DNA of 20,717 nt, from IMG/VR virus record IMGVR_UViG_3300042344_000895, positions 1 through 20,717 of that record. One strand, 5' to 3'. The notes below the pieces were generated by a model. That model was not told the DNA's origin, made no database searches, and worked only from the letters and a program-made list of their open reading frames with translations. This DNA comes from a virus. A program made the position numbers and the translations under genes. Shown here piece by piece: positions 677 to 19,051 of the stretch. Position 1 is the first letter of the stretch. Every line of letters begins with the position of its first letter.

Positions 677-1071
677 GCCTATCCTTCTCCATCTCGGGCC
701 CCGCCGTTGCCGATTTGCAGCGCGTCCGATCCAAGCTGCATGACCTGAGTGAGTTGGTGACGCAATTGGGTGAGATGCAACACCAAATGACGCTTGAGGA
801 TTACGGGTCTCAGGTTTCACCGGATGGAGCCGGTTGGGTTGGCGGGCCCAACTATCACGGGCTGGTAGAGACGGGCGCGATGCAAGGCGGTATCACCCTG
901 TCATCTGGGGGCAATACCGCCACGATCACCGCGTCCGATGCCAAGTCACCCTGGCATAATTTCGGGACTTCAAGAGGGATCCCAGCGCGTCCCTTTGTTG
1001 GGATTGGGGCCAGGCACGAATCGAAGCTCAAGGAAACAGCCGAGCAGTGGCTTCAGACAATACTCGGGTGA
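673..1071 (+). CDS. Phage virion morphogenesis protein, Mu gpG-like
   Basis: A 132-residue protein whose C-terminal part (WHNFGTSRGIPARPFVGIGA, about residues 95-114) has the hallmark of the phage virion morphogenesis family (Mu gpG, P2 gpS type): an aromatic/His segment, then G...IPARPF-hG, then a final helix. In these phages the protein acts in tail completion or head-tail joining. An N-terminal helix (residues 10-45) is consistent with family members. The ATG overlaps the preceding stop by four bases (ATGA), implying translational coupling. Its 3' end overlaps tail-to-tail by 19 bases with the minus-strand HTH gene. The family call is fairly secure; the exact role in this phage is inferred. 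Confidence 0.75.
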   Translation: MSLSFSISGPAVADLQRVRSKLHDLSELVTQLGEMQHQMTLEDYGSQVSPDGAGWVGGPNYHGLVETGAMQGGITLSSGGNTATITASDAKSPWHNFGTSRGIPARPFVGIGARHESKLKETAEQWLQTILG

Positions 1072-1514
1072 GGCTCGAACTCTGGAAACAACTCGCTCAC
1101 TGGCTTTTGAGCCAATGCAGCCAACTTTTGACGCTCCCAATAGGTGGGAGCGTCTTGCTTTCTGAGGATTGCGTGCAGCCTCGTGTAGTCCACGCCGCTT
1201 AGGTGCGATAGCGGCCCAACATCGATCCGCCCGGTTGCCTTCAAGTCTCGGAACCATTCGATAAAGACCTCAGCAGCTTGGTCGTACTCCGGGAACGCAT
1301 CAGGCAGCTCTAGCCCCAACGCCTGAGACACCAGCCGCCGGAATTGATAGCTCGCTTCCTCACGTCCGTTGATCGCTGCATTCACATGCTGCGGGATTAG
1401 TTTTTTCCCGGTCTTGGCAAAAACCAGGTAGCACAAATCAACCTGGCTTAGCTTGCGTTCCTTCAGGATTCGTTGCATCTGAACACAGGCTTTTGCGTTT
1501 TGAGTTCGGCCCAT
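1053..1514 (-). CDS. HTH (XRE-like) DNA-binding protein, antisense within the head operon
   Basis: A 153-residue protein. Residues 13-52 (MQRILKERKLSQVDLCYLVF, later QHVNAAINGR) have the layout of an XRE/Cro helix-turn-helix: helix 1, then LSQ-x-D-L as helix 2, then a recognition helix ending in I-N-G-R. A second possible HTH follows at about residues 95-140 (LSHLSGVDYTRLHAILRK). This suggests a transcriptional regulator. It runs opposite to all neighbouring structural genes, and its stop codon lies inside the 3' end of the gpG-like gene. It is divergent from the protease gene, with 164 bases between them. I see no good ribosome binding site before the ATG. It is likely a moron-type insertion. 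Target and effect are unknown; it could control the promoters beside it or host genes. Confidence 0.75.
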   Translation of the reverse strand: MGRTQNAKACVQMQRILKERKLSQVDLCYLVFAKTGKKLIPQHVNAAINGREEASYQFRRLVSQALGLELPDAFPEYDQAAEVFIEWFRDLKATGRIDVGPLSHLSGVDYTRLHAILRKQDAPTYWERQKLAALAQKPVSELFPEFEPHPSIV

Positions 1515-9913: not shown

Positions 9914-12900
9914 CACAAACCTCACAATCACGATCAATGCTGTCGATCAAGCTTCTGCGAAGATCGACAGCATTTTGTCTAGGCTCGAACGCGCCCAAAA
10001 AGCCACCGAAAGAGCAGCAAGGGGGGCCGGCGGCGCAACAGATGACGCGGCAAAAGGAGCCGGTCGGTTGCAGCGCGGGATGGGCCGAGCCGCCGACGCA
10101 ATGGCGGGATTCGATGCTGCGGCCAACCTGATCGGGCGGCCGGTGATCGGAGCGATTGGTGGGAGCTTGCAAGCATTCCAAGAATTTGAAGATGCAATGG
10201 CCGGGGTTCGGAAGACCACCGGACTGAGCGCCCAAGAGACCCAAGTATTGGGCAACGAGATCAAGGCGATGTCGCGCACCATCCCCATCAGTCAGAAGGG
10301 GTTGGCGGACATCGCTGAATCGGCCGGGTCGTTGGGCATCGCGCGGGATGACATCGGCAAGTTCGTGGACACGACCGCCAAGATGTCCACGGCCTTTGAC
10401 ATCGCGCCAAAGGAGACAGCCACCCGACTAGGGAAGCTCTCGAACACGTTTGGATTCATGAACCAAACGACGGGCAAGCTTGACTTCGGGCGCGTCCAAA
10501 AGTTTGGCGACATGATCAACTATTTGGGCAACACGTCGGCGGCGACCGAGGTGGAAATCCTGAACGCGACTCAGCGGTTTTCAGGTACAGCCAAGGCGAT
10601 GCGGATCACCGAAAACGACGCGGCCGGGCTGACCACCACCATGATTTCGTTAGGCATGGCCCCGGAGTCGGCCGCCACGGGCCTCAACTCGATGTTCGCT
10701 TCATTGAACGGGTTGAACAAGGCGACACCGAAGCAGGCGGCCGCGCTCAAGGATTTGGGGCTGACCACCCAAGACGTGATGAAGGCAATGGAGGTTAGCC
10801 CAGTCGATGCCTTTGAATCCATTTTGTCTAAGGCGGGTGATGCTGGGCTGAAAGGGCAAGCGGCCCTGGTTGGGCTGTTCGGGAAAAACCACGCACCGAA
10901 GGCCGCGCAACTTGCCCAGAACATGGACGTGTTAGCGGCCACGATGAAGCGGGCTAATGACACGACGGCACAAGGCGGCGGGATGCAAGCTGAATTTGCC
11001 GCGCGGATCGACACGATGAAGGCGCGGGTACAACTTGCCCAGAACGCCTTGAACGAGCTATCGATCAACGTCGGTGGCGCGCTTGCCCCAGCAGTCTCTT
11101 CAGTTCTTGCCCCGATCACGTCAGTCGTTCAGGCTCTTGCGAGTTTCGCTAGTGCAAACCCTGGCATCACCGCCATGATTGCGACGTTCGCAGCCTTGAG
11201 CGCTGGGATTTTGGTGGTGGTGGCCGCAGTCGGCGCGATCGGTGCTGCCCTCGCTGGGATTTCGGTTGGGCCGATTCTGGCTGTGGCGGCTGCGATCACA
11301 GCAATCGGAGCGGCGGCGATGGCGTTGAAACCGCAACTATCAGCGCTGTTCACTGGGTTCGGTCAAGGGTTCATGCAGGCATTTGGCCCTGCACTAGATC
11401 GGGTCAAGGCTGCCTTCTCTCGGTTGGGTGAGGCTTTAGCGCCCGCGTTCAACGCAATCAAGGCAGCGATTCAACAGGCGTTTGGGCCCGGTGCGCTCTC
11501 AGGGATCCAGAACTTTGGGCAAATGATCGGAACTGTCTTGGGCGCGGCGGCTGGGTTCGTGGCTGATTTCGTCGCCAACATCGCCAACGGGATTGCAGCG
11601 GTCGTGGAATTTGGCAACGCGATCGCGCAAGCGTTCAGCGGGGATTTTTCGGGACTGGCCACCATCGGATCGGGACTGATGAGTGCTATCGGCAGCGCAT
11701 TGGCGGGATTGCCGGGGTTGGTGATGTCAATGCTTGCACCCATCCCGAGCATGGTGATGTCGGTATTTTCTGGCTTGGGCGGGATGATTTCGGGTGCGCT
11801 CTCGGGATTGCCCGGACTGGTCTCAAGCGCATTCACTGCCATCCCCACGGTGATCACTGGCATCTTTGGCCCATTGCCCGGAATGCTTGCGAGCCTTGTG
11901 ATGTCGTTCGGGTCTGCGTTCTCAGAACTGGGCAGCTCGATCATGTCGGGATTGCAAGGGGCGCTCTCGGGGATTGGCTCGTTTGTCCAGAGCATTCAAT
12001 CAACCGTGATGGGCGTGGTCAATGGCATTAAGGCGGCCTTTGCTGGACTGTCTGGAGCCATGAACATCGGGGGCGGTGGTGGTGGAGGGTTCCTGAGTGG
12101 GATGCTCTCGGGTGCTCAAACCATGATCCAGGGGTTGATCTCTAGCCTGTCGTCAATCGGCCCGATGCTGCAATCAGCCTTGACCGCTCCCCTCATGGCA
12201 ATCGGCCCGGCAATGGCTTCAATCACGACAGGATTGTCGAGTGTCGCCACCAACATCGGCACGATTTTCAGCGGCATCGCCACAACCATCACGCCTGCAA
12301 TCGCCCAAATCGGCATGGTCTTAACGACGGCGTTCACAACGGCATTCGCACAGGTTGGGGCCCAAGTAGCCGCATTCACCGCGCAACTCGGGGCCGCGTT
12401 CATGGGCATCACCACCCAAGCAACCATGCTCGGTTCAACCCTGACGATGGCGTTCAGCACTGCCTTCATGGGTGTCCAGATGCAAGTGATGATGCTGGCC
12501 GCGAGCATGACCATGGCCTTTGCAACGATCACGGCTCAAGCGACCGCGTTCGGAGCGGCTCTATCCGCTTCGCTCACGTCATCAATGGCAGCAGCCCAAG
12601 CGTCCATGGCGGCCGCCATCGCAGGGATCCAGGCGCAACTTGCACAGCTACCCGCGATTGCATCGGCAGCCGGAGCGCAAATTGCCGCCGCGTTCCAAGC
12701 CATGGCCGGCTCAATGCAAGCGGCCGGGATGGCGATGATGTCGAATTTGGCCAGCGGGATTACAGCCGGAATTGGACAGGCGGTTGCAGCGGCATCGGCA
12801 GCGGCGGCGGCCGTTCGAGGTGCATTTCCCGGTTCTTACGCCAAATACGGGCCGTTCTCTAAGTCCCAATTTGGCGGGGCCGGCCCTGGCTTGCTCGACG

Positions 12901-13732: not shown

Positions 13733-14218
13733 ATGGCCTATCTGCTTTTGGGTGAGATGGAATTTGCGATCCGGGGTGGCATCAGTGGGGTGCGCAACGC
13801 AGCGAAGTGGAGCTTTCCCACTCACGACCGGATCGCGCGGCAACAGTCAATGCAGGCTTGCGGTTGGGATCTAGAGGCCCTGGACGTGACGCTAGACCTC
13901 CACTGTGAGCAGGGGGCGATTGAACCAAGGTTGTCGGCATTGCGAGCGGCCGCTTCAGAACAAAAATCCCTTGACCTGATTTGGGGCCAAGGGATTTGGA
14001 ATGGCAAGTATGTGATCGAGTCACTCAACTCAGATGTTGAGCAGACGTTTTTGGATGGGGCGCTCTGGAAGGTGAAAGTTGATTTGACCCTGAAGGGGAC
14101 AACGAAACCCGACCCGTCCCCATCGGCTGATTTGTCGGCAGCGTTTGACTTTTCCCCTTTTCAGCAGTCAGCAACCGGGGCGTTAGCGGCGGCATTGTCT
14201 AGGGCGTTGGGGGGTTAG
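13733..14218 (+). CDS. Tail protein gpU-like (P2 U family)
   Basis: A 161-residue protein with TAAGGAAA at 13718-13725 as its binding site. It begins with the family hallmark MAYLLLGEMEFAIRG. The rest fits too: a W-x-F-P-x-H-D-R-I segment, then a strand DLEALDVTLDLHCEQGAIEP, then LSALRAAASEQKSLDLIWGQ and IWNGKYVIESLNSDVEQTFL, ending in a strand with a Lys-Val-x-Leu-Thr-Leu pattern. P2 gpU is a tail component that follows the tape measure gene, matching the position here. The last stretch is Ala-rich. Its 3' end overlaps tail-to-tail by 20 bases with the minus-strand gene at 14199-14546. The late gene run then stops until 19052. Confidence 0.85.
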   Translation: MAYLLLGEMEFAIRGGISGVRNAAKWSFPTHDRIARQQSMQACGWDLEALDVTLDLHCEQGAIEPRLSALRAAASEQKSLDLIWGQGIWNGKYVIESLNSDVEQTFLDGALWKVKVDLTLKGTTKPDPSPSADLSAAFDFSPFQQSATGALAAALSRALGG

Positions 14219-14546
14219 AGCGAAAAAAGACACCGGGAAGCTTCCAGGGACTTTGAACAAGCCCTTGATCTTTTTTGAGTGAATTAGCCCAAACTGCGAA
14301 ACGCTCAATCTGTTCCTGTAATTCCGGGTTGATTTCAGCAAGCGAGTCTAGATTAAGCGAGTCCAGTTCAGCGGTGTCCTGACTTGCAGCGTCATCTTCA
14401 ATCCGATCTGCCATTCTGATGGCATCTTCCACAACGGCAGCAACATCATGCCTACGCCATTCGTACTTGGGATTTGCCAACAGCGCTTCAGTCAATCGCA
14501 GCAATAGCTCAGTCCTGTTCATGGCTTGCACCAGAGGGTTGATCAT
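14199..14546 (-). CDS. Hypothetical accessory protein
   Basis: A 115-residue protein. The start at 14546 is chosen because its ATG overlaps the stop of the upstream minus-strand gene (TAATG), implying coupled translation; a start 24 bases further in (MNRTELLLRL) is also possible. The protein is mostly helical and acidic in the middle (EDAIRMADRIEDDAASQDTA, LDSLNLDSLAEINPELQEQI), with a basic, Pro-containing C-terminus. No family was recognised. It is the last gene of the leftward unit, and its stop lies inside the 3' end of gpU. Confidence 0.6.
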   Translation of the reverse strand: MINPLVQAMNRTELLLRLTEALLANPKYEWRRHDVAAVVEDAIRMADRIEDDAASQDTAELDSLNLDSLAEINPELQEQIERFAVWANSLKKDQGLVQSPWKLPGVFFRSNPPTP

Positions 14547-14944
14547 TAGGGGGTTAGTCCCCACCAGTCGGCAGCCAGGCGGGACGCGGCGACCATGACT
14601 AAGGCCCGGTTCAGTGTTTCGCCGTCAGCATGGCTGGGGTTGATTTGCACCGAATTGATGACCTTGACAGCGCCTTCAATTCCCACCCGATGAGCAAGCT
14701 CCTGAAGTTCAGGTAGCCCCTCGAATACGCCGCGCCGGACGCGATCAATCAGTTCATTGGCTACGGTGTCGTCACTGCCATGGCTATCCAGCTTCTCTTG
14801 CAGCCAGCCCCGAGCCGTGTCTGGCGAAACAGTGACAAGGCGCTCTTTCATTTCTTTCGAGACCTTGACCTGAAATATTTCGCTCAGCCCTCTTCGCTCC
14901 GAGAGTTTCAAGTTTTTCAGTGAATTGGGATTTATCTTTCTCAT
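14546..14944 (-). CDS. Hypothetical protein with a possible DNA-binding N-terminus
   Basis: A 132-residue protein with AGGAG seven to eight bases before its ATG (CAGGAGCGTCACCCATG). The basic N-terminus (MRKINPNSLKNLKLSERRGL) followed by EIFQVKVSKEMKERLVTVSP has a strand-then-helix order that recalls ribbon-helix-helix or short AT-hook-like proteins. The second half is helical (ANELIDRVRRGVFEGLPELQ; LNRALVMVAASRLAADWWGL). It is coupled to the next gene by TAATG. A regulatory role is only suggested. A short hairpin separates it from the gene upstream. Confidence 0.6.
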   Translation of the reverse strand: MRKINPNSLKNLKLSERRGLSEIFQVKVSKEMKERLVTVSPDTARGWLQEKLDSHGSDDTVANELIDRVRRGVFEGLPELQELAHRVGIEGAVKVINSVQINPSHADGETLNRALVMVAASRLAADWWGLTP

Positions 14945-14957
14945 GGGTGACGCTCCT

Positions 14958-14984
14958 GAAAATGCCGGGCCATTACGTCCCGGC
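14958..14984 (-). terminator. Candidate weak minus-strand terminator
   Basis: GCCGGG (14964-14969) pairs with CCCGGC (14979-14984) across a 9-base loop. On the minus strand it is followed by ATTTTC. The stem is short and the T-run interrupted, so it may be a partial terminator or a spacer structure between the 276-residue and 132-residue genes. Confidence 0.45.
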
Positions 14985-14994
14985 GTAAAGGTGG

Positions 14995-15825
14995 CTAGAA
15001 GGGTTCGGTGGGTTCGGGTTCCGATTGCCCGGTCAAGGCTTCGATGGCTTCATGAGCGGATAGGGACTTGGCGATCCAGTAGACAGGGAAAGGAAGCGTG
15101 GAAAGCGCGACCACTCCAAAAATAGGACGGCCCATGAGCATCCAGTCGTTTTCGTCTTCATCCCAAGTCCCACGGAAGACCCGAATCTTGCCATGAGCGT
15201 CCATAAACGCCACGGTGCAATCATCACCATGTTCGGGATAATCGCCATCGGCAATGCAGAACCAGTCATCGGGCGGGTTGATTTCAGGCTTGGCTGCATT
15301 GGGACGCGGATACCGATCACACCAAGTCCCGGTGGTATTGACCAGCCCCTCACGACTGACCGCGGCCACAACGGCAATCGATTGGCCGTCACGCACCCGA
15401 ATCACGTGCCACGGTTCTGCTTTGTCCGGCTTGGTGGAAGGGATCAAATCCAAAACGCACTCATCTCCTTCCATTAACGCCAGCACTTCAGTCAGCAACT
15501 TGGGGTTGACATTGACCGAAACGGGCGATTCTGCATTCATCTGAGAGAGTACATGATTAGCCATCTTCCGATGCTTGTCGTCATCTTCGGTGCGATCCGC
15601 AGGCTCCCAGGTTGCGACCGTCCCGAGTTTCTGTACCTGAAACTGCAACGGGCGATCCTCTAGTCGATGAAACAGCGCCGTGGTGCAAAATGCGATGGGC
15701 CCGTCATCAGGAAAGGCTACGACGACGGGGCCGATTTGCCATACACGGATCGCAGACTCTCCCTTGCGGGCGATGAATGCGTCGAAAAAACGGCGGCTCG
15801 TGACGACCAAATCTTTGATACTCAT
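14995..15825 (-). CDS. Hypothetical 276-residue protein, possible clamp-like and DUF551-like parts
   Basis: The ATG at 15825 is chosen because longer in-frame starts overlap the SWIM gene and add a translation without protein character. It has the shared leader GAGTCCACCC before the ATG. Residues about 103-160 (VSVNVNPKLLTEVLALMEGD, CVLDLIPSTKPDKAEPWHVI, QSIAVVAAV) loosely resemble the last domain of sliding clamps (N-P-K-x-L-L...V-x-L...P-V-x-I...I-x-P-V). Residues about 190-235 (DDWFCIADGDYPEHGDDCTV, then FRGTWDEDENDWML) resemble the DUF551 pattern of W-x-x-V-x-D-G-x-x-P-E-x-G-x-x-V and a closing W. Both comparisons are by eye and weak. It follows the SWIM gene by 32 bases, probably in the same operon. 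Confidence 0.6.
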   Translation of the reverse strand: MSIKDLVVTSRRFFDAFIARKGESAIRVWQIGPVVVAFPDDGPIAFCTTALFHRLEDRPLQFQVQKLGTVATWEPADRTEDDDKHRKMANHVLSQMNAESPVSVNVNPKLLTEVLALMEGDECVLDLIPSTKPDKAEPWHVIRVRDGQSIAVVAAVSREGLVNTTGTWCDRYPRPNAAKPEINPPDDWFCIADGDYPEHGDDCTVAFMDAHGKIRVFRGTWDEDENDWMLMGRPIFGVVALSTLPFPVYWIAKSLSAHEAIEALTGQSEPEPTEPF

Positions 15826-15857
15826 GGGTGGACTCAACTCGACTGGGATGAACGGGG

Positions 15858-16256
15858 TTAAGCAGCAATCAACGAACGGAACTCGGACAACTCCCAGCCA
15901 CAGCGCACCAAATGCTTGCAGATGGGTTGGCGAGACCCTGACGCATCCTGACGGCTCCAATCTTCGCAATCGCACACCGCGCGGTTTTCGACAACCTTGA
16001 CAGAGTGCCACCGGATGTTCGGGCCATCGCACGTTTCGAGCCGGACAACCCCGCGATGCACGGCCGCCAACCGAACGTGATTGGCATTGCCGATTCGCAG
16101 CGACCGAAAATCGGTTGCAAAGTCACGCTTGCTCACGAACCGGCCGCCCTTGCCCTTGACCACAACCAACACCACATGGGCCCAAACTTCGATTCGCAGG
16201 ACTTGGTTGGCGGCAACCTTCAGGATGCGAGCGGCGGCGGCTTTGGTGAATTGCAT
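15858..16256 (-). CDS. SWIM zinc-finger protein
   Basis: A 132-residue protein. The C-terminal part has a clear SWIM signature C-x-C-x(15)-C-x-H: C95 and C97 (VCDCEDW), then C113 and H115 (ICKHLVRCGW). SWIM domains chelate zinc and mediate DNA or protein binding in regulators, recombination accessory proteins and transposases. The N-terminal half is beta-rich and basic (HVVLVVVKGKGGRFVSKRDF), compatible with nucleic acid binding. The protein is much shorter than most SWIM proteins and has no other recognisable domain. It has its own promoter at 16284-16312 and is the first gene of a leftward unit. The motif call is strong; the biological role is unknown. Confidence 0.75.
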   Translation of the reverse strand: MQFTKAAAARILKVAANQVLRIEVWAHVVLVVVKGKGGRFVSKRDFATDFRSLRIGNANHVRLAAVHRGVVRLETCDGPNIRWHSVKVVENRAVCDCEDWSRQDASGSRQPICKHLVRCGWELSEFRSLIAA

Positions 16257-16279
16257 CGCGGGAATCTCAACTCGATACT

Positions 16280-16292
16280 ATCGATTATCGAT
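16280..16292. promoter_or_regulatory. Palindrome overlapping the SWIM promoter -10
   Basis: ATCGATTATCGAT is a 13-base palindrome (ATCGAT, T, ATCGAT). It covers the -10 hexamer GATAAT of the minus-strand promoter and is therefore a plausible repressor site. It is missing from the sister promoter at 17397-17425. Confidence 0.45.
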
Positions 16293-16312
16293 GGTATGCC
16301 ATAGATTGTCAA
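16284..16312 (-). promoter_or_regulatory. Sigma-70-type promoter with spacer operator for the SWIM gene unit
   Basis: On the minus strand TTGACA (16312-16307) is followed by a 17-base spacer and GATAAT (16289-16284), matching the sigma-70 consensus at 11 of 12 positions. The spacer contains an inverted repeat, CTATGG-CATA-CCATCG. The block from CCCCTTGACAATCTA through the inverted repeat is nearly identical to that at 17397-17425. The predicted transcript would begin about 20 bases before the SWIM start. Confidence 0.75.
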
Positions 16313-16398
16313 GGGGGTGGCAAGAAAATTTCAAGCCACCCAAGGTAGATTCAGATAACCCGTTTCCAGTTAGATACCCAAAGTGTTGATATTTCCAA

Positions 16399-16424
16399 CA
16401 AAAAAGCCACCGGGGGCGGTGGCT
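16399..16424 (-). terminator. Intrinsic terminator of the zinc-ribbon protein gene
   Basis: Perfect 7-bp stem AGCCACC (16405-16411) with GGTGGCT (16418-16424), loop of six. On the minus strand it is followed by TTTTTT (complement of 16399-16404). It lies 62 bases after the stop at 16486. No T-run on the plus strand. Confidence 0.85.
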
Positions 16425-16485
16425 GGGTTTGTTGGCGACAAAACCTATGACACTCAGAGTAGCACAACTTGGCTCCTGTGGATGG

Positions 16486-17370
16486 CTATTGTTGACCCAC
16501 GGCCGTGTTGAGGTATTCAACGACGCGGGTTTTTTGCTGGCTCAGTTTTTTTACCAGTTTGCTCTCTTCGCTCTTCAGGGATCCTAGCTCCTGTCGAAGA
16601 TCGTCCACTTTCGCCCACCCCCAGGACGATTCGATGTCGTTGCGGCGGTGAGCATTGGCATACATTTCTTTCGTCCAACTCCCTTCGATCTGCTCATCAC
16701 TCCAGGAGTTGGACTCCTCCTTCAAAGTCTGATACTCAGACCCCTCAGCTTCCGAGTTTGCCTGGGCGGCCCGTGCTGACGCTTGTGCTGACTCAAGCGC
16801 TGCCTGCTTTTCTGCGATTTGGGCGCGGAGACTGCCAATCGCCTTAATGTCATCGGGGGTGATGTGCTGGATCAGAATTTGATCCTCAGCAGCGTCGATC
16901 ACCTCTTCCGCATCGGGGGTTGCGATCGCAGACAGACTGTATGGGTCATGGGCGACAAACCGCCCTTTATCAATAAACCACTTTGCACTAGTCTCTTGCG
17001 ATACCTTGGTGTGCGCCTTTTCCAAAAGGGGAACCACTACCCCCTCAAGCAGAGCGCCCTTAACGCCCTCGATCTCTTCAGTGATAGCCGCAAGCAGCTC
17101 GCTACGGATTGTTTCCGCCCATGCGATTTGCTTGGGCGATCCTTGGATGGCGGGGAGTCCTCGCTCCATGGCTTCCGCAGCCGCTTCCCGTGAAGCCTGC
17201 TGACGTTCTTCCCGCTGTTGCTGTTTCCAGCAATCAGGGCAAAGCCCCTCCCTTTCCCGCCATTCGATCTTTTGTTCTAAGTCCTCCCGAGAAGTGTACT
17301 CAACGTAGACTTTTGCGGTGTGCCCGCAAGAAAACTTGATTGTTTCGTTGGAGGTTTTTGTGCGGCTCAT
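16486..17370 (-). CDS. Zinc-ribbon and coiled-coil protein
   Basis: A 294-residue protein. The N-terminus has a probable zinc-binding site: C15 and H17 (FSCGHTAK), then C44 and C47 (LCPDCWK). Residues 76-95 (IQGSPKQIAWAETIRSELLA) carry a 'G-S-x-K-Q-I-A-W-A-E-x-I-R' motif known from many phage and plasmid proteins of unclear function. Residues about 180-290 are predicted coiled coil (IAEKQAALESAQASARAAQA; LRQELGSLKSEESKLVKKLS). It is monocistronic: promoter at 17397-17425, terminator at 16399-16424. Its operator twin suggests control together with the SWIM unit. The coding sequence contains a HIP1 octamer at 16922-16929. It is probably an intracellular nucleic-acid- or protein-binding accessory factor; no enzymatic motif is visible. 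Confidence 0.7.
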   Translation of the reverse strand: MSRTKTSNETIKFSCGHTAKVYVEYTSREDLEQKIEWREREGLCPDCWKQQQREERQQASREAAAEAMERGLPAIQGSPKQIAWAETIRSELLAAITEEIEGVKGALLEGVVVPLLEKAHTKVSQETSAKWFIDKGRFVAHDPYSLSAIATPDAEEVIDAAEDQILIQHITPDDIKAIGSLRAQIAEKQAALESAQASARAAQANSEAEGSEYQTLKEESNSWSDEQIEGSWTKEMYANAHRRNDIESSWGWAKVDDLRQELGSLKSEESKLVKKLSQQKTRVVEYLNTAVGQQ

Positions 17371-17396
17371 GGCGTTTTGCTGAACTCGTTGAATCT

Positions 17397-17425
17397 ATTG
17401 TCTACGGCATACCGTAGATTGTCAA
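17397..17425 (-). promoter_or_regulatory. Promoter with spacer operator for the zinc-ribbon protein gene
   Basis: On the minus strand TTGACA (17425-17420), a 17-base spacer and GACAAT (17402-17397; 4 of 6 matches). The spacer contains CTACGG-TATG-CCGTAG, a 6+6 inverted repeat. Fifteen bases, CCCCTTGACAATCTA, are identical to the promoter at 16284-16312, and the inverted repeats differ mainly by paired changes (C for T and matching G for A) that keep the symmetry. Confidence 0.7.
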
Positions 17426-17449
17426 GGGGTTAGGCGAAATATTTTGAAC

Positions 17450-17480
17450 AAAGAAAAGCCGGGCCATCACGGCCCGGCTT
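17450..17480 (-). terminator. Intrinsic terminator of the Bro-N unit
   Basis: Perfect 10-bp stem AAGCCGGGCC (17456-17465) with GGCCCGGCTT (17471-17480), loop ATCAC. On the minus strand it is followed by a T-rich stretch (TTTCTT). It begins six bases after the stop of the 41-residue gene. Confidence 0.8.
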
Positions 17481-17485
17481 GATCG

Positions 17486-17611
17486 TTATTTCAGGGCTTG
17501 CCGCAACCGCTTCAGGGTCTTGCGCTTCTGACGGGCCCGCGCCGATCCGCCCTTGCCCTTGTCGTTGCGGCCGGTGTTGCGGGGTGACTCGTGGGACTTC
17601 AGGCGGTTCAT
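17486..17611 (-). CDS. 41-residue basic protein
   Basis: A short gene from the ATG at 17611 to the TAA at 17488-17486. It is preceded by AGGAG and the shared context AGGAGCCACCCATG. It encodes MNRLKSHESPRNTGRNDKGK, a short Gly/Ser/Ala linker, and a tail rich in Arg, Lys and Leu (RARQKRKTLKRLRQ). The strong positive charge suggests nucleic acid binding. It lies nine bases after the Bro-N gene stop and just before a strong terminator, so it is the second gene of that unit. No family was recognised. The ribosome binding site and gene spacing make it credible despite its size. Confidence 0.65.
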   Translation of the reverse strand: MNRLKSHESPRNTGRNDKGKGGSARARQKRKTLKRLRQALK

Positions 17612-17620
17612 GGGTGGCTC

Positions 17621-18226
17621 CTATGCAGCGGCTAGCAGGTTTTTGCTCAGAACTTCAAGGCACTTGGCGGGCGGGAAAAACCAGCATCGAGCCGAGCCGC
17701 CTGGGAAGCGTGACAACTGACCCGGGATGCCGCCTGACGCAACAAGAGCAGCCCGTTCTAACTGGAGCGCGGCAACCTTGACAGACGCAATTGCAACATA
17801 ATCCACGCCAGCACGGTCGCGATGTAGTCGCGCATTGTGTGGGTCGCAAAACTCAAGCTGCCCCCTAACTAGTCTTACTCCGGACAACCGCAGCAAATCA
17901 GCCACACCAAATTGCGACCGCAGCTCACGAGATTGTGGGAGCAAGCAATCAAACACCCACCGCTGAAATCTCTTAAATACAGGACTGCTGCACTGGAACG
18001 CCAGGGACGAAAGCCCTGCTTCGTTCACGAGTACCACATAAGACTCGGATGGCAAGTCCCGAAAACGAAAAGAGCCGATCATCCAGTCATCCAGCGTGTC
18101 AACGGCACCCGCATGCAACCCAAGACAGCCGCAAACGTCTGAGGCGGAAAACCACAATCCATCACTTGTCCCGACCACCCGAACCTCTTGACCTTCAAAC
18201 GCTTGAGTCGGCAAAATATTTGGCAT
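17621..18226 (-). CDS. Bro-N domain antirepressor-like protein
   Basis: A 201-residue protein with an excellent binding site (AAAGGAGG) before the ATG at 18226. Residues about 10-105 have the Bro-N layout: F-x-G-x-x-V-R-V-V followed by LWFSASDVCGCLGL, then YVVLVNEAGLSSLAFQCSSP, then VFKRFQRWVFDCLLPQSREL. Bro-N domains bind DNA and are common in phage antirepressors (Ant, KilA-N and Rha-like proteins). The C-terminal half (YVAIASVKVAALQLERAALV and a Cys/Trp-containing end) does not match the usual ANT/KilAC domains I know. It has its own promoter at 18304-18331. It may lift repression of lytic or accessory genes. Confidence 0.8.
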   Translation of the reverse strand: MPNILPTQAFEGQEVRVVGTSDGLWFSASDVCGCLGLHAGAVDTLDDWMIGSFRFRDLPSESYVVLVNEAGLSSLAFQCSSPVFKRFQRWVFDCLLPQSRELRSQFGVADLLRLSGVRLVRGQLEFCDPHNARLHRDRAGVDYVAIASVKVAALQLERAALVASGGIPGQLSRFPGGSARCWFFPPAKCLEVLSKNLLAAA

Positions 18227-18259
18227 GGTATCAAGTTCCTCCTTTGAACTGATGCCTTG

Positions 18260-18299
18260 GCCGCTCTGAGAATCTGACCTCTCGGGGCGGCTTTGTTTT
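18260..18299 (+). terminator. Plus-strand intrinsic terminator antisense to the Bro-N leader
   Basis: GCCGCTCTGAG (18260-18270) pairs with CTCGGGGCGGC (18281-18291) over 11 positions, two of them U-G wobbles, followed on the plus strand by TTTGTTTT. On the minus strand the two wobbles become A-C mismatches and no T-run follows. The structure is therefore built for plus-strand RNA. It would stop rightward read-through of late transcription just before the minus-strand promoter at 18304-18331. Confidence 0.65.
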
Positions 18300-18303
18300 G
18301 TCC

Positions 18304-18331
18304 ATTATAGCGCAAAGAGTTTAGTCGTCAA
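18304..18331 (-). promoter_or_regulatory. Sigma-70-type promoter of the Bro-N gene
   Basis: On the minus strand TTGACG (18331-18326), a 16-base spacer and a perfect TATAAT (18309-18304). The transcript start would be near 18297, giving a leader of about 70 bases. The promoter overlaps the 3' end of the neighbouring gene (stop at 18321-18323). Confidence 0.75.
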
Positions 18332-18509
18332 TCTTGACCGGGCGGGAAACAACCAATTCACCGCTAGCGATTGCGGCAAAGAACTTATTCCAAGCGGGAT
18401 TACCGCCATGTACATACCCCAACTTCATCACCAACCTGCTCACCTTGTCGCGAGCAGTTCGGGGCATGTGGCAATTAAGCGCAACGCTGTCTGTGTAAGG
18501 ACGCGGCAT
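18321..18509 (-). CDS. Small hypothetical accessory protein
   Basis: A 62-residue protein. Two in-frame ATGs are possible (18515, 18509); the second is preferred because AGGAG lies nine bases before it. It begins MPRPYTDSVALNCHMPRTAR and continues DKVSRLVMKLGYVHGGNPAW, ending in a short strand. The strand-then-helix order and basic residues are compatible with a ribbon-helix-helix-like DNA-binding protein, but I do not recognise a family. Its 3' end overlaps the promoter of the Bro-N gene. Confidence 0.55.
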   Translation of the reverse strand: MPRPYTDSVALNCHMPRTARDKVSRLVMKLGYVHGGNPAWNKFFAAIASGELVVSRPVKIDD

Positions 18510-19051
18510 GATCATCGACTCCTAGGGACAAGCTCTTTGCATTTATTCTATCCCACCCAAGGACAGATAGGTCATCAACCCCTGACCAAAAGGCTTGTTA
18601 CATCTTGGGTGCAACGCCTCAAATCCTTACCCCGTATACGTCTCAGCTTGTATCACGAAACCCCAAAAATAAGTCCCCAACATTTTGAGAGCTCCTAAAT
18701 TTTGGACTCACCCAAGGTATAAAAGAGCACTCGATCAACTGCAAGAATTTAGACCTTGCTTTTTAATCATCATCATTTTTCATTAATACAAAAGATACAA
18801 AGTAACAGAAGAGAAGAGAAGAGCTTGGATTCCTTACTGGGTGAGGGTTTCAGTTTTTTGAGGTTGTGTCACTTCGGTACGGTTTGGTACGAGCTGCTAA
18901 CAGGAGCCATTTTTTGGAAAAACCCGATCCCTGAAAGGCTTATATAGCAAGGATTCTGGGTTGTTACATACCTCTAGGGCTATCCCTGAGTTAACCCCCT
19001 TGGGTGGCTCCGGTCTGTCAGGGTGTAGACAGCCCCAAGCCCTTACCAGCC
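18510..19051. other. Gene-poor gap before baseplate J
   Basis: About 540 bases without a supportable gene; the open frames here lack binding sites and protein character. Composition is more AT-rich than the flanks. It holds several copies of a CACCCAAGG motif, a direct repeat of GGTACG (GGTACG-GTTT-GGTACG, 18876-18891) and TATAAAA-like elements (around 18718-18724 and 18940-18946). No clear -35/-10 pair was found. Because a plus-strand terminator lies upstream, a promoter for the J gene is expected here. Baseplate genes normally found at this point are absent. Confidence 0.5.
18554..19006. repeat. Dispersed CACCCAAGG motif
   Basis: CACCCAAGG occurs at 18554-18562 and 18709-18717, its complement CCTTGGGTG at 18998-19006, and a shortened complement CTTGGGTG at 18604-18611. 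A further copy is at 16337-16345, beside the SWIM promoter. The copies lie in non-coding sequence. They could be protein-binding sites or part of a small dispersed repeat. Confidence 0.4.

Follow-up and report, generated by a model that had tools for sequence, protein, structure and literature searches.

The Arc repressor of phage P22 is a small phage repressor that acts at Pant through an operator placed between the −35 and −10 boxes, with the antirepressor gene adjoining. Cluster O mycobacteriophages carry more than 30 dyad repeats of 17 bp, TGTTCGG-N3-CCGAACA, located both between and inside genes (PMC4351075). The operators and stoperators of the Cluster A phages L5 and TipsytheTRex are asymmetric 13-bp sites bound by a monomer, and the L5 sites are also found in short intergenic positions, where they block elongation (PMC9283540). 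In Cluster K, the SAS/ESAS elements comprise a conserved start-codon-proximal sequence, about half of them with an upstream inverted repeat, and their consensus varies by subcluster (PMC3203893).

The stretch of DNA analysed here (the window) is the full 20,717-bp IMG/VR virus contig IMGVR_UViG_3300042344_000895. Its two similar promoters are probably two members of a phage-wide regulon in which the operator lies in the promoter spacer and would be read by a phage-encoded dimeric protein. The operator position is that of P22 Arc, and a Bro-N antirepressor-like gene is present in the window as well; Arc, however, serves one locus and not a dispersed regulon, and an RHH protein is not confirmed in the window. 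The promoter family would belong to a known kind, the dispersed phage operator/promoter regulon. It resembles Cluster O in the many copies per phage genome of a short dyad-symmetric site and, as with the zinc-ribbon gene described below, in a gene lying between short direct repeats of which sister phages have one copy; it differs in that each of its sites is placed in a recognisable promoter, within the spacer, four to eight per phage (PMC4351075). With Cluster A it shares dispersed sites fixed relative to transcription, read by one repressor in L5 and predicted to be so in the window family, but with no more than one mismatch allowed, the window-type dyad consensus was found at these promoters only and not outside promoters, where the L5 sites block elongation (PMC9283540). 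The start-associated leader is like the mycobacteriophage SAS, whereas ESAS consists of 17-bp repeats with a variable spacer and the window has a compact 18-bp dyad inside the promoter (PMC3203893).

Results and Discussion

Organization of the window and its gene island

The plus strand of the window encodes a contractile-tail structural module (capsid, sheath, tape measure and baseplate), the sheath being matched to P2-type sheaths. A minus-strand gene island separates the tape measure region from the baseplate gene (Table 1). From its upstream end, the order is a 64-aa gene, the Bro-N antirepressor-like gene, a 41-aa basic protein gene, a terminator, promoter B and the zinc-ribbon gene; next come a second terminator, promoter A, the SWIM gene and three further genes. 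Family searches with the proteins of these last three genes gave no match. SWIM orthologues, 61–62% identical, were found at the equivalent place in the related loci L080 and L082. A promoter-like site before the Bro-N gene (18331–18304) is without the operator.

Table 1. Features of the window, with positions counted from its first letter.
Feature	Positions	Strand	Remarks
XRE/CI-like HTH protein, candidate regulator (putative binding)	1053..1514	-	conserved in G001, G003, G004
Unit A remainder: 288-aa, 132-aa (14546-14944) and 121-aa proteins	14199..15861	-	no family match
132-aa SWIM-domain protein, encoded first in unit A	15858..16256	-	weak Pfam SWIM match (E 0.035), under the cut-off
Leader A with CGAGTTGAG, nine bases before ATG	16254..16283	-	element also in relatives
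Promoter A, CCCC-TTGACA-N17-GATAAT, upstream of SWIM gene	16284..16316	-	PWM score 35.2
Putative operator A, dyad TCTATGGCATACCATCGA, 7/9 pairs	16288..16305	.	consensus TCTRYGGNATNCCRYAGA, 1 mismatch
Unit B terminator, just upstream of promoter A	16405..16424	-	core ACCGCCCCCGGT
Zinc-ribbon-like protein, 294 aa, unit B	16486..17370	-	phrog_16123, E 4e-20
Leader B with CGAGTTCAG, nine bases before ATG	17368..17396	-	sequence
Promoter B, CCCC-TTGACA-N17-GACAAT, upstream of zinc-ribbon gene	17397..17429	-	PWM score 30.6
Putative operator B, dyad TCTACGGTATGCCGTAGA, 8/9 pairs	17401..17418	.	dyad symmetry
Terminator AAGCCGGGCC..GGCCCGGCTT between Bro-N unit and promoter B	17456..17480	.	sequence
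Bro-N unit: 64-aa, Bro-N antirepressor-like (17621-18226) and 41-aa basic proteins	17489..18515	-	

The twin promoters of the window

The coordinates, the shared 15-mer block, the 17-base spacers and the inverted repeats given in the first-pass annotation were all found to be correct. Promoter A is composed of the 15-mer CCCCTTGACAATCTA (16316–16302) with TTGACA at 16312–16307, the 17-base spacer ATCTATGGCATACCATC and the −10 box GATAAT at 16289–16284, the ATG of the SWIM gene being at 16256. Promoter B has the same 15-mer at 17429–17415, TTGACA at 17425–17420, the spacer ATCTACGGTATGCCGTA and GACAAT at 17402–17397, with the ATG of the zinc-ribbon gene at 17370. The 18-bp dyad fills the spacer and extends one or two bases into the −10 box (two bases at A); the chance of such a dyad in a random 29-mer is p = 0.0015 for at least 8/9 pairs and p = 0.018 for at least 7/9.

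By itself the 15-mer repeat is weak evidence. The window contains six distinct repeated 15-mers, two of which are overlapping halves of one 16-base repeat, and at least one repeated 15-mer occurred in 25% of shuffles of the window; the repeat gains significance because it stands at an equal position upstream of two genes and because of the relatives. The statement that the differences between the two inverted repeats keep the symmetry held in part. A and B differ at five dyad positions (5, 8, 11, 14 and 16), among which pair 5/14 is compensatory (T:A to C:G) but position 16 breaks the dyad in A, and pair 8/11 is unpaired in both; at least two symmetric pairs among five differences correspond to p = 0.06. 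The further copies of the site that the first-pass annotation had proposed to look for were not present elsewhere in the 20.7-kb record. An Rfam search gave no match, and the palindrome was ruled out as an RNA hairpin, the site lying upstream of the expected transcription start.

Promoter copies in related phages

Capsid and SWIM queries were used to find the relatives G001 (IMGVR 3300047551_003799), G003 (2831813989_000002) and G004 (2909633642_000001, 65.6 kb). In the SWIM scans, a two-sequence alignment succeeded where the window sequence by itself gave no match. G001 is 82–88% identical in DNA to the window and ends before the promoters. No match to the full window-type 22-mer was found in a scan of viral contigs, because the relatives differ in the spacer; a leader-based scan, in which the −35, −10 and leader were fixed and the spacer was left free, found G005 (3300042344_000972) and G006 (2831813989_000001), the latter forming with G003 two contigs of IMG genome 2831813989.

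In total, 20 promoter copies were found in four phages: two in the window, six in G003 plus G006, eight in G004 and four in G005. The 18 copies beyond the window, from three phages and four IMG/VR contigs, stand before unrelated genes. Every one of the 20 has a spacer of exactly 17 bases with the site inside it, in fixed register to the core promoter. In G003 and G004 the island order is as in the window, with a single promoter before the SWIM gene; TTGACA and the TATATCGAGTTCAG or GCATCGAGTTCAG leader are kept there and the spacer is different. Among the eight copies of G004, two form a divergent pair in the early region and another is divergent from an XRE-like gene. PWM scans gave 0–2 weak matches in most shuffles of 139 kb and isolated matches only in 1.3 Mb of other loci.

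The first-pass annotation had proposed a two-unit regulon within the accessory island. This has to be given up: in the relatives the same promoter type drives early-region as well as island genes, and since the window is a fragment from the structural half, no members other than its two promoters can be seen in it. Because the promoter type recurs across the phage genome, the switch is most likely phage-wide and not confined to the two genes.

When 84,980 genomes were scanned with the window-type 22-base pattern, one unrelated match was obtained, although close host genomes may be masked. The Lachnospiraceae match L037 to this pattern, with no proper −10 and no leader, was taken as chance, as were the L098 and L099 matches to TTGACATTCCGATGGTTAC, from which the leader context is absent. 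At L102 of G004, tandem promoter copies (7394 and 7131) precede a 276-aa gene, and the usual leader is absent.

Spacer types and the proposed factor

The spacer sequence is uniform within each phage, and two types occur overall. The six sites of the window and G005 (four in the latter) share the dyad TCTRYGG-NATN-CCRYAGA, and the 14 sites of G003/G006 and G004 (four of them in G006) share the asymmetric sequence TTCCGATGNWTAC. At one centre the window/G005 type has a mean of 6.67/9 pairs, a value reached by 0 of 20,000 column permutations; the second type has 3.07/9 at that centre and is not clearly palindromic. On these pair counts the dyad does not appear to be a general feature of the promoter family. 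For the second type, the cognate protein would read a site that lacks symmetry, or reading would be limited to the core G-N-W-T-R-C.

Within types the spacers differ at 4.9 or 4.0 of 17 positions and between types at 8.0, against leader differences of 1.3, 1.9 and 2.4 of 10. At five orthologous promoter pairs the spacers differ at 5–10 of 17 positions with the −35 unchanged, and the leaders show 0–1 differences of 10 in four pairs and 4 in the fifth. Since one spacer type is found within a phage and the spacer is changed at orthologous positions, the pattern points to a trans-acting factor. The earlier proposal of one repressor for both units is thereby well supported by the relatives as regards a single trans-acting factor; that the factor represses is suggested by the boxes. 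The −35 boxes and most −10 boxes come close to consensus at a spacing of 17 bases, and for this reason occlusion by a repressor is taken as likelier than activation.

These comparisons also bear on a spread of the promoter–leader block with cassettes by duplication or recombination, in which the spacers would have no operator function and their likeness would reflect recent descent. The orthologous spacers have diverged next to an unchanged −35 and, in four of the five pairs, a nearly unchanged leader, and neutral drift would neither re-type several sites in one way nor yield a symmetric consensus. Such a spread is therefore unlikely, although the promoter is duplicated around the zinc-ribbon gene, G004 has its tandem copies (7394/7131), terminator modules are shared, and the copies of one genome may have been duplicated too recently for their likeness to have worn away.

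A role of the spacer as binding site for an activator or for a phage-specific RNA polymerase accessory factor, by which the regulon would be switched on and not derepressed, is also rather improbable. The conserved spacer in fixed register to −35 and −10 and the asymmetry of the second type would fit such a factor, but perfect −35 and near-consensus −10 boxes at 17-base spacing usually need no activator, and spacer-centred sites more often repress. Control by a host transcription factor, which a dyad site within sigma70-type promoters might suggest, is very doubtful, given that two spacer types are in use among phages that share one gene set and that the genome scan, in which close host genomes may be masked, gave the single unrelated match.

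A DNA-binding protein acting at the spacer would be a phage-specific one, most likely the repressor of a phage-wide regulon. Each promoter would be of sigma70 type, with a near-consensus −35, a 17-base spacer serving as operator and a −10. With a phage-encoded dimeric DNA-binding protein on the operator, RNA polymerase would be shut out and the unit silenced, probably in a prophage or plasmid-prophage, until the protein is removed. The operator sequence would be specific to the phage type and would have changed jointly at every site of a given genome.

The start-associated leader

Leaders A and B both carry CGAGTTSAG exactly nine bases before the ATG, an element absent from the first-pass annotation. 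The related sequence ATCGAGTT[CT][AG]G was found directly before the start codons of operon-internal genes that lack this type of promoter (L102 18445, L165 5970 and L082 7200). Since the leader is also present at these genes, it is best read as a separate translation-start-associated module and not as a second operator.

The zinc-ribbon cassette

The zinc-ribbon gene has its own promoter and terminator. No match to it was found in G001, G003 and G004, and it is absent at the equivalent locus of G003 and G004; in L080 and L082 the gene order is unchanged, with a single promoter and no zinc-ribbon gene. The upstream flank of promoter B (AAAATATTTC, then CCCCTTGACA) matches the flank of the single promoter of G004, and the terminator core ACCGCCCCCGGT of promoter A, its leader and the SWIM gene match this same single-promoter region. 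Because the flank of B and the leader and gene of A both match one promoter region, the zinc-ribbon gene stands between two promoter copies. L080 and L082 share this terminator core, which there belongs to the terminator preceding the SWIM promoter, and the terminator type located upstream of promoter B (17456..17480) was also found in G004 and G005.

This layout may have arisen either by insertion of a moron-like cassette or by loss in the relatives through recombination between the promoter copies; the same two histories have been offered for gene 14 of Corndog (PMC4351075). The zinc-ribbon gene resembles a moron-type cassette placed next to a SWIM promoter that was already there, and by this move it would have joined an existing regulon.

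Single genes have been gained or lost at several points of the island. Compared with its counterparts in G003 and G004, the Bro-N protein of the window (17621–18226) keeps the N-terminal domain and has a different and shorter C-terminal part (201 aa versus 323–340 aa), a domain swap in an antirepressor-like gene. The very basic 41-aa protein (17489–17611) is about 78% conserved in G003 and G004 and is always encoded last in the Bro-N unit. An extra 151-aa gene (L082 7221–7673) lies between the Bro-N and 41-aa genes of G004, and none is found there in the window.

Candidate regulators

The HTH protein encoded at 1053–1514 is conserved in four phages, with 60–95% identity across G001, G003 and G004. 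Its N-terminal domain models as a CI-type/XRE HTH (AF2, pLDDT 85–90), the closest PDB structure being the TP901-1 CI NTD (probability 1.00, TM (target) 0.74, E 0.03). The putative recognition helix is nearly identical across phages of both spacer types, which counts mildly against this protein as the spacer regulator.

A second candidate, an early XRE-like gene, is present in G004, G006 and G005, where the XRE call is by sequence pattern only; it has no Pfam or PHROG match. Palindromes lie near it: TAGTTTAACTA in G004 and G006, and ACACTCAGAGTGT twice in G005. In G004, TAGTTTAACTA and TAGTTTGGCTA are located between the XRE-like gene and the divergent promoter (L103 4584–4617), and both are also found in G006. 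In G005 (L163), the spacers of the promoters at 12352 and 13422 contain ACACTCAGAGTGT, a different palindrome that is perfect or nearly so, and one of the two promoters is divergent from the XRE-like repressor gene; ACACTCAGAGTGT is probably this repressor's own operator. Since the XRE-like gene has its own nearby palindromes, its product probably reads other sites, in G005 at least.

The 132-aa protein of the unit A remainder was considered as an RHH autorepressor from an RHH-like pattern seen by eye, which neither searches nor model supported: it had no Pfam, PHROG or PDB match, and its structure model had a pLDDT of 43.

Host and significance

An actin-like ParM-type partition protein is encoded in the early half of G004 (L102 15916–17040) and of G005 (L163 4760–5878). 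The G004 protein had 13 plasmid matches, all in cyanobacterial plasmids; since these matches are only cyanobacterial, a cyanobacterial host is likely for these phages, possibly with a plasmid-like prophage, and G004 and G005 are possible phage-plasmids.

Tentatively, a modular promoter may be at work in cyanobacterial contractile-tail phages, possibly phage-plasmids, in which the −35 is invariant, the spacer operator exchangeable and the start-associated leader conserved. All operators of a genome would be re-typed together, defining immunity groups, and cargo genes would join the switch by acquiring the module. Little is known of lysogeny control in temperate cyanobacterial phages, and an operator/promoter module with natural sequence types would provide a handle for finding the repressor; it may also help to predict superinfection immunity groups and to recognise cargo genes under phage control.
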